Below are positions 45,184 to 48,557 of a stretch of 64,000 nucleotides of DNA, piece after piece. Source of the stretch: Gemmatimonadales bacterium (GTDB lineage Bacteria > Gemmatimonadota > Gemmatimonadetes > Gemmatimonadales > GWC2-71-9); NCBI GenBank assembly GCA_019637315.1, contig JAHBVU010000006.1, positions 124,001 through 188,000 on the forward strand, in the 5' to 3' direction. The stretch's first letter is position 1. Each line of letters opens with the position of its first letter. The notes under the pieces are model-generated. The model had not been told where the DNA came from. It saw only the letters and a program-made list of their open reading frames with translations, and made no database searches. Position numbers and translations under genes: made by a program.

Positions 45184-45207
45184 CCAAGGGACGGCGCCCA
45201 GGAGCCT

Positions 45208-45367
45208 CGGGGCTCGACCCCGCAGGCGGAGCCAAGGGACGGAGCCCAGGAGGGACAACTAGAAAGCCGCCTCGCGGCGGCGAGTCGGAGGCCCGGGGCT
45301 CGACCCCGCAGGCGGAGCCAAGGGACGGAGCCCAGGAGGGACAACTAGAAAGCCGCCTCGCGGCGGC
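45208..45367. repeat. Two 74-bp direct repeats mimicking the tRNA-Gln 3' end
   Basis: Copies at 45208-45281 and 45294-45367 are identical over 74 bp and separated by 12 bp. A degenerate part copy (CCAAGGGACGGCGCCCAGGAG) begins at 45184. Each copy ends with about 30 bases that read, on the plus strand, like the 3' end of the minus-strand tRNA-Gln plus its downstream sequence (GAGCCCAGGAGGGACAACT versus GAGCCCAGGAGGGGCAACT). The second copy and the tRNA end therefore form a long near-perfect inverted repeat around the terminator hairpin. Confidence 0.85.
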
Positions 45368-45371
45368 TTTC
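45348..45371 (-). terminator. Terminator-like hairpin of the tRNA operon
   Basis: GAAAGCCGCC-loop-GGCGGCTTTC, 10-bp stem with a 4-nt loop, 5 bp after the tRNA-Gln 3' end. No long U-run; the arms are extended by the tRNA-end inverted repeat. Confidence 0.6.
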
Positions 45372-45376
45372 AAAGT

Positions 45377-45448
45377 TGCCCCTCCTGGGCTCGAACCAGG
45401 ACTCTTCTGATCCAGAGTCAGACGTGTTGCCAGTTACACCAAGGGGCA
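45377..45448 (-). tRNA. tRNA-Gln (anticodon CTG)
   Basis: 72 nt read on the minus strand. Acceptor TGCCCCT/AGGGGCA pairs fully. The anticodon stem is TCTGA/TCAGA with loop CTCTGGA, giving anticodon CTG (codon CAG, glutamine). The T arm is CCTGG-TTCGAGC-CCAGG. CCA is not encoded; the next bases are ACT. It is downstream of tRNA-Ala in the same transcript, 5 bp away. Confidence 0.95.
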
Positions 45449-45453
45449 CCAGA

Positions 45454-45526
45454 TGGAGCTGAGGGGGATCGAACCCCTGACCTCTGCAGTGCGATTGCAG
45501 CGCTCTCCCAGCTGAGCTACAGCCCC
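45454..45526 (-). tRNA. tRNA-Ala (anticodon CGC)
   Basis: 73 nt on the minus strand. Acceptor GGGGCTG pairs with CAGCTCC, including the G3-U70 wobble that marks alanine tRNAs, with discriminator A. D arm GCTCAGCTGGGAGAGC. The anticodon loop ATCGCAC gives CGC (codon GCG). T arm AGGGG-TTCGATC-CCCCT. First gene of the two-tRNA transcript. Confidence 0.96.
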
Positions 45527-46988: not shown

Positions 46989-47172
46989 CGATGCCTCCTG
47001 GTCAGGTAAGGTCTCCTGACCACGAGGACGAACGAGCCTGGCCCGACCGGCACGCCGACCCGCCGAACCCGGCCTGAAATACTGCGTTCAAAATTGCACC
47101 GCCTGCGTCGGTTGGGTTATCACCGCAGACAGGGTGCACCCCAGCTTCGGAGGAACCTTATCGAGGAGTCGT

Positions 47173-47637
47173 ATGGGGGCCAGCTCGGGTATCTACGCCG
47201 TCACACTGTGGACCGCAGGCCGAATGCCAACCCTGGTCAGTTTCGACCGGCGCGGGGTAGCGGTGAGTCTGCTGGGCCGCCTCGTCCTCGAGCGCTGGGG
47301 ACAGCTCGCCTCGGCCTTCCGGGAGCTCACCATCGACGAGTTCGCCATCCTGCCCGATCGTTTCCGCGCGGTGGTGCACTGCCTGAGCCCCGCCGACCTC
47401 GAACTGAGCCTGGCGTGGTTCCGAGCCGCGGTTGCGCAGGAAGCTCGACTGGCCGGGTTGTCGCAGAGCGGTGTTGTCTGGGAATCGGGGGGCGATATCA
47501 TCGCACTCGAGAGTGCCGACGAACTGATGAGCTGGCGCCGGAGGATTCGTGCCGGTCGGGCACTCGGATTGTCAGGATCCCTGCCGACCGGCGTACCCCC
47601 GGCACCGAAGGCGGCCGCGACCGCGGCACGCGGCTGA
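47173..47637 (+). CDS. RAYT-like (Y1 transposase fold) protein lacking catalytic residues
   Basis: A 154-residue protein. The ATG at 47173 follows GAGGAG by 4 bp; the in-frame ATG at 47134 lacks a site. The sequence follows REP-associated tyrosine transposases along most of its length: GIYAVTLWTAGRMPTL (their strand 1), LLGRLVLERWGQLASAFRELTIDEFAILP (helix and strand before the HUH), then PDRFRAVVHC where they have MPNHVH, and VVWESGGDIIALESADELMSWRRRI where they have the tyrosine helix (YYEHIIR...). Both HUH histidines and the tyrosine are missing, so it cannot act as a Y1 nuclease. It is a domesticated or decayed relative. Convergent with rnz, 5 bp apart. Confidence 0.65.
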   Translation: MGASSGIYAVTLWTAGRMPTLVSFDRRGVAVSLLGRLVLERWGQLASAFRELTIDEFAILPDRFRAVVHCLSPADLELSLAWFRAAVAQEARLAGLSQSGVVWESGGDIIALESADELMSWRRRIRAGRALGLSGSLPTGVPPAPKAAATAARG

Positions 47638-47642
47638 AAGGT

Positions 47643-48557
47643 TCAGTCGGGAAATGGTACGTCGACGGTCATGCCGTCGCGGGCGATCCTCACGGCCGGA
47701 AAGACGGCGCTTGCCTCGGCCAGCAGTTCGGGGGCATCACGGCTGTAGCGGGCGCTGATATGGGTCAGGACCAGGCGGCGGGCACCGACCTCGCGCGCGA
47801 GCAGCGCCGCCTCCCGCGCAGTCGAATGACCGGTCTCGGCGGCACGGGCACGCTCGTCCTCGCCGAAGGTGGCCTCGTGCACCAGCAGGTCGGCACCGCG
47901 GGATACCTCGCGAACGCCGGCACAAGGTCGAGTGTCGCCGCTATAGACCACGGTACGCCCCGGGCGGGTCGGCCCCACGATGCCCTCAGGCGTCACGATC
48001 CGGCCGTCCGGCAGCGTCACAGCCTTGCCGCGGTGAATCTGGCCCCAGAGCGGGCCTTCCGGCACGCCGAGCTGGCGGGCGACTTCCGGATCGAAGCGGC
48101 CAAGGCGGTCCTGCTCGACCAATGCGTAGCCAACGGTATCCATCCGATGCTCCGTCGGAAAGACCAGGATGTCGTACTCGGCCCGCTTGAGTCGGTCGCC
48201 GGGTTTGACTTCGATGATCTCGACGGGAAACTTGGTTCGCTCGATCCCGACCGACAGGGCATGTTCCAGGATCCGACGGGCGGGCCGAGGTCCGTAGAGC
48301 GTCACACCTTCGCGCCGGTCCATCAGCCCCATGGTACGAAAGAGCCCGATCACACCGAGCATGTGATCCGAGTGGTAGTGCGAAAAGAAGATCTCGGTAA
48401 AGGTGAACCCGACGCCGTACCGCATCATCTGCCGCTGCGTACCCTCGCCACAATCGAAGAGGAGCGTCTCGCCTTCGCGAGCAAGGGCTATACTGGTGAC
48501 GTTGCGGTCGACCGTGGGACACGCGGCGCCGGTACCAAGAAACGTGAGGGCAAGCAT
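47643..48557 (-). CDS. rnz: Ribonuclease Z
   Basis: A 304-residue metallo-beta-lactamase-fold endonuclease that matures tRNA 3' ends where CCA is not encoded, as in both tRNAs here. Seen: LTFLGTGAACPT, FDCGEGTQRQM, the metal site SHYHSDHMLG (HxHxDH), PTEHRMD, the exosite part GRFDPEVARQLGVP and GPLWGQIHRG, VYSGDTRPC, VHEATF, GHSTAREAA (His), and LTHISARY. Length is normal for RNase Z. It is the last gene of the mlaE-mlaF-mlaD-rnz run, 37 bp after the mlaD stop. Confidence 0.95.
   Translation of the reverse strand: MLALTFLGTGAACPTVDRNVTSIALAREGETLLFDCGEGTQRQMMRYGVGFTFTEIFFSHYHSDHMLGVIGLFRTMGLMDRREGVTLYGPRPARRILEHALSVGIERTKFPVEIIEVKPGDRLKRAEYDILVFPTEHRMDTVGYALVEQDRLGRFDPEVARQLGVPEGPLWGQIHRGKAVTLPDGRIVTPEGIVGPTRPGRTVVYSGDTRPCAGVREVSRGADLLVHEATFGEDERARAAETGHSTAREAALLAREVGARRLVLTHISARYSRDAPELLAEASAVFPAVRIARDGMTVDVPFPD

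Follow-up and report, generated by a model that had tools for sequence, protein, structure and literature searches.

Genes and features at the locus

Within the window (i.e. the whole 64,000-nucleotide stretch of DNA analysed), positions 47173–47637 of the forward strand contain an open reading frame (ORF) for a 154-aa protein, P0001, with an ATG at 47173 and a stop codon at 47635–47637. From the ORF, a profile alignment and AlphaFold models, it encodes a genus-specific pseudoenzyme derived from REP-associated tyrosine transposases (RAYTs). A Shine–Dalgarno-like GAGGAG (47163–47168, forward strand) lies four bases 5′ of the ATG; the intact frame and good ribosome site described in an earlier note on this DNA are both present. 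GGAG-like sites also precede the start in three orthologues (G001, G002 and G005), with a weaker one in G003. An alternative in-frame GTG lies upstream at 47134; the conserved part starts only past the ATG.

The gene is convergent with that for RNase Z (47643–48557, reverse strand; TIGR02651, E 6e-100), a conserved neighbour that anchors the locus by synteny. In all five genomes with an assembled locus the gene runs toward the RNase Z 3′ end, and past RNase Z all five have genes that we take to be mlaDFE-like. A tRNA-Gln(CTG) and tRNA-Ala(CGC) pair (45375–45526, reverse strand) forms the conserved left boundary of the interval; it occurs on this opposite side in G000, G001, G003 and G005, and the stretch read in G002 stops short. 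The other neighbours vary: (i) a class II-like photolyase (NCBIfam phr2, E 4e-105, below the curated cut-off; no Pfam match) sits immediately upstream of the RAYT-derived gene in the same orientation, between it and the tRNAs, in G001, G003 and G005, with 72 to 97 bases between the ORFs (photolyase ORFs at 604–2001 of L013, 5631–7034 of L015 and 5305–6687 of L016), is some 6.4 kb distant in G002 and was not found in G000; (ii) an AI-2E transporter gene lies between the tRNAs and the RAYT-derived gene in G000; and (iii) a 503-aa ORF, presumably a beta-lactamase-type serine hydrolase, lies between the RAYT-derived gene and RNase Z in G002. The RAYT-derived gene stayed while its neighbours changed.

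It is present as a single copy in five of the six genomes of the genus, and the four other proteins are 64, 61, 56 and 48% identical to P0001; these five orthologues all come from draft genomes, three of them titled as MAGs. The locus is missing from the assembly of the sixth genome (G004, 84% complete). Because G004 has no full RNase Z match and its photolyase match stops 175 bases from a contig end, absence of the gene there is uninformative. Three genomes of sister genera (G018, G009 and G023) have the tRNA pair and RNase Z together without the gene, about 700 bases apart in G023. The simplest account is therefore a gain in the common ancestor of the genus; less simply, the sister genera may have lost the gene.

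REP or REPIN repeats were searched for by scanning the 64-kb window, and no 18-mer occurs at least three times. Just downstream of tRNA-Gln (45192–45395), an 86-base tandem repeat (45192–45363; two copies, 93% identical) carries copies of the 3′ end of tRNA-Gln in inverted orientation. Similar DNA accompanies this tRNA pair in G003 and is otherwise found at few sites. Given its few copies and its position by the tRNA pair, we do not claim the tandem repeat as a REP-like target.

Descent from RAYTs and predicted fold

Profile–profile alignment with hhalign relates the five orthologues to 20 RAYTs over 124 columns (probability 99.0, E 6.5e-18), with the catalytic motifs free of gaps. Residues 4–127 of P0001 are covered, which bears out the earlier claim that the protein aligns with RAYTs along its length. 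These 20 RAYTs (alignment A3) are the 23 RAYT rows of alignment A2 without L008, L031 (truncated) and L030 (Tyr-to-Trp); A2 in turn holds 23 of 28 listed matches outside the genus, and the five omitted (L037, L038, L043, L045 and L046) all have H-x-H. The A3 profile also matches the TnpA-REP structure 4er8 (E 4.2e-8), with HUH and Tyr in matching columns. A single-sequence search with P0001 retrieves intact RAYT loci of the same order (best E 2.6e-12), whose translations carry MPDHVHA and YVAANP. In a phylogenetic tree, the five orthologues form one fully supported clade on a very long branch, and their sister among the RAYTs is not resolved. On these sequence comparisons, the ORF is a real gene that shares common descent with RAYT/TnpA-REP.

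Family models did not detect this relationship: P0001 matches no family in Pfam or NCBIfam, the four other orthologues have no match to the Y1/RAYT models in the same type of scan (PF01797 and NF047646), and none of the five matches PHROGs. A sequence search of the PDB with P0001 and alignment A1 gave chance matches only.

The AlphaFold model built with the A2 alignment has a pLDDT of 87.5. Because A2 includes RAYTs, a model was also made from the five orthologues alone (pLDDT 78.4, pTM 0.75), and its order of structural elements is much the same. The top 29 PDB rows returned by Foldseek are all Y1 transposases for both models, with 4er8 at an rmsd of 3.0 for the orthologue-only model. VIA-align superposes the A2-based model on 4er8 with Z 12.9 and rmsd 2.4 over 116 residues (model range 3–135). 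Structural rows with Z under 9 (i.e. Thg1, ribosomal S6 and designed ferredoxins) were taken to reflect the common ferredoxin-like arrangement. The fold of P0001 is predicted to be Y1/HUH ferredoxin-like, and in this respect the comparison with TnpA-REP leaves domestication, as proposed in the earlier note, standing.

Replacement of the catalytic residues

Three motifs of RAYTs are altered (coordinates on the forward strand): (i) LPDRFRA (L60–A66; 47350–47370) stands in place of the HUH motif, with R63 and R65 at the two His positions; (ii) W103–E104 (47479–47484) stands in place of the RAYT WQ, whose Q is found in 21 of 22 RAYT rows; and (iii) WRRRIRAGRA (W121–A130; 47533–47562) stands in place of the Tyr/NP motif, with R124 at the catalytic Tyr. 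The HUH columns hold His in 23/23 RAYT rows and the catalytic Tyr column holds Tyr in 20/21, with Trp in one. R63, R65 and R124 are identical in all five orthologues and occur in 0/23, 0/23 and 0/21 RAYT rows, respectively.

The earlier note was right that the position of MPNHVH reads LPDRFR, where RAYTs have MP[DN]HxH on the HUH strand, and that both the HUH histidines and the Tyr are lost, but it misplaced the latter. The GGDIIAL that it took for the tyrosine helix aligns with RSFHDRII of RAYTs, a segment directly past the conserved W103; the true Tyr column (YxxNP; Y115 in E. coli TnpA-REP) aligns with R124 in WRRRI. To judge from these alignments, cleavage by HUH–Tyr chemistry is excluded for P0001.

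Across the five orthologues, 48 residues are invariant, and 14 of them (W13, V22, F24, R63, R65, H69, E104, W121, R124, G128, R129, L131, G132 and G135) do not occur in any RAYT row with a residue in that column. The seven-residue invariant run LPDRFRA is weak evidence by itself, since 757 of 20,000 shuffles gave a run equally long. H69 is a new residue on the HUH strand and, according to the AlphaFold model and the alignment, in register with R63 and R65. Other residues are retained from RAYTs, in all rows (T11, G35 and P61) or in all or nearly all (W42, D55, W103 and R122). In E. coli TnpA-REP, the Q of WQ (Q95) contacts GTAG. This column, matched through the A3–4er8 alignment, holds Glu in P0001; with the GTAG-contacting residue replaced, REP binding as such is unlikely, and the ligand has probably changed relative to TnpA-REP.

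We also searched for similar losses elsewhere. Outside the genus, a profile search yielded 40 loci, each counted once, from 395 genomes of the phylum and 102 genomes of the family; the first pass of this search scored nine candidates per genome in the former set and up to 38 in the latter, so that distant dead copies could escape it. The inspected translations keep H-x-H at all 40 loci. Tyr is replaced by Trp at two, both in genus g22 (L073 on contig C31 of G411 and L030 on contig C145 of G026), and some others are truncated ahead of the Tyr. The two g22 loci contain a syntenic RAYT-derived gene with VILPDH[LM]HGI and ARAWLLANP; this is a second, independent tyrosine loss, which suggests that the case of P0001 may not be unique. 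By contrast, L008 (contig C23 of G045), a RAYT with KPDHLH and an in-frame TAG ahead of the Tyr motif, is an ordinary decaying copy. In a wide collection of genome contigs, a single-sequence scan gave no match and a profile scan gave three loci, taken to be G002, G001 and G005 themselves; none was found in the viral contigs and plasmids searched. In the six genomes of this genus, PF01797 detected no RAYT. Its sole match (L001; G000 contig 6, 16386–16742, reverse strand, outside the window) is apparently intact, carries RPDHVHM and is read here as an IS200-type TnpA.

Possible functions and comparison with known systems

We propose that the interval between the tRNA-Gln/tRNA-Ala pair and RNase Z received a Y1 transposase gene of the RAYT type in an ancestor of this Gemmatimonadota genus, that the HUH–Tyr chemistry was then lost and that the host kept the protein as a pseudoenzyme. 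The protein would still use the old groove to bind folded single-stranded nucleic acid (a hairpin of DNA or RNA), with R63, R65 and R124 holding phosphate where the metal ion and the tyrosine once acted; binding without cutting would make it a structural or regulatory hairpin-binding protein. TnpA-REP binds single-stranded DNA hairpins strand-specifically (PMC8266576). The nucleic-acid-binding role is suggested by the predicted fold and the conserved arginines: with a hairpin-binding fold left and arginines at the metal and Tyr positions, phosphate could be bound without cleavage. Taken as a whole, from RAYT entry through loss of catalysis to a host-kept pseudoenzyme that holds hairpin nucleic acid uncut, this is the explanation that we favour, with moderate confidence.

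More tentatively, the HUH–Tyr centre may have been rebuilt as an Arg/His/Glu/Trp pocket (R63, R65, H69, E104, R124, W13 and W121) with a new host function. If so, the pocket would either hold hairpins without a metal or accommodate a new ligand or reaction, and would do so in a genus that has no recognisable RAYT. The second of these options, in which the same seven residues turn the old active site over to a new ligand or chemistry (e.g. phosphate or nucleotide binding), competes with hairpin binding. It would account for the 14 lineage-fixed residues, many of which lie where the HUH, Tyr, WQ and NP motifs used to be, and for the new H69 in register with the two arginines; however, no known family in Pfam, NCBIfam or PHROGs is matched and no catalytic pattern is recognised, and we regard it as rather unlikely.

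The constant company of RNase Z, adjoining in 5/5 genomes, and the photolyase directly upstream in three raise the further option of an accessory factor, as a partner of the former in the processing of RNA 3′ ends or of the latter in DNA repair. RNase Z is convergent, however, so that the two genes form no operon, and it is present in sister genera that lack the RAYT-derived gene; the photolyase is distant in G002 and was not found in G000. Such a role appears improbable.

Decay, in which the frame of a transposase remnant is merely still open, was weighed against the pattern of substitution. Over the ten orthologue pairs, NG86 dN/dS is 0.17–0.60 at dS 0.84–2.32, near saturation, and the highest value belongs to G001–G005. 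For RNase Z, dN/dS is 0.11–0.15 (six pairs, four genomes), and in the six shared genome pairs the RAYT-derived gene has values 1.4 to 2.2 times higher, so that its constraint is moderate and weaker than that on RNase Z. Owing to high GC, other reading frames in several genomes also contain few or no stops, and we therefore rely on differences by codon position (0.364/0.241/0.556 for first, second and third positions), which are most frequent at third positions, rather than on openness. In a substitution-only neutral simulation, the four other lineages all stayed stop-free in just 1.05% of 2000 runs, a share that indels would lower. The 0.60 of the one pair, the long branch to RAYTs and the ease of open frames at high GC speak for decay. 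Against it stand the intact frames of all five orthologues at such divergence, the variability of third positions, the rarity of stop-free neutral outcomes and the fixation of former catalytic positions to the same new residue, which make it very improbable. The gene is under purifying selection. Homologues with the same losses, which the earlier note had suggested looking for, exist with undisrupted frames, and their dN/dS is in line with domestication.

Inactive copies of a transposase can inhibit functional ones, and G000 carries one IS200-type TnpA elsewhere, but the five remaining genomes lack a PF01797 match and thus anything recognisable to inhibit, which makes a trans-acting dominant-negative inhibitor of active RAYTs or IS200 elements just as improbable as decay.

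Domestication, in the sense of a host-maintained and immobile gene, is well supported: the predicted Y1 fold, intact frames, dN/dS, single copy and fixed place sustain this part of the new role that the earlier note had proposed. Passages of PMC8049555 describe RAYTs as single-copy, vertically inherited and domesticated yet still active on REPINs. A 2018 survey of HUH proteins (PMC6006769) retained 722 of 924 sequences and treated the ones that lack the core motifs as probably non-functional. A conserved RAYT-derived protein without catalytic residues at a fixed place indicates that motif-less sequences can be functional. In the open-access literature searched, no description of a conserved, catalytically dead RAYT was found. 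P0001 offers a clean case for testing what use a RAYT has to its host without DNA cutting.

Three known systems are closest. Like RAYT/TnpA-REP (NF047646; 4er8), P0001 has the predicted fold over residues 3–135 (Z 12.9), keeps T11, G35, W42, D55, P61, W103 and R122 and is encoded once per genome at a fixed place; unlike them, it lacks H-x-H and Tyr, has WE for WQ and GR for NP, scores on no Pfam or NCBIfam RAYT model and has no associated repeat family seen in the window. It shares the predicted Y1 ferredoxin-like fold with IS200/IS605 TnpA (2a6m, 2xm3 and PF01797; Foldseek E about 1e-5), but its gene occupies a fixed locus in one copy per genome, with no catalytic residues and no IS ends seen. 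The g22 RAYT of the same family (L030 and L073) is likewise syntenic and has lost its tyrosine, to Trp; unlike P0001, it keeps H-x-H, sits at another locus and belongs to a separate part of the tree.
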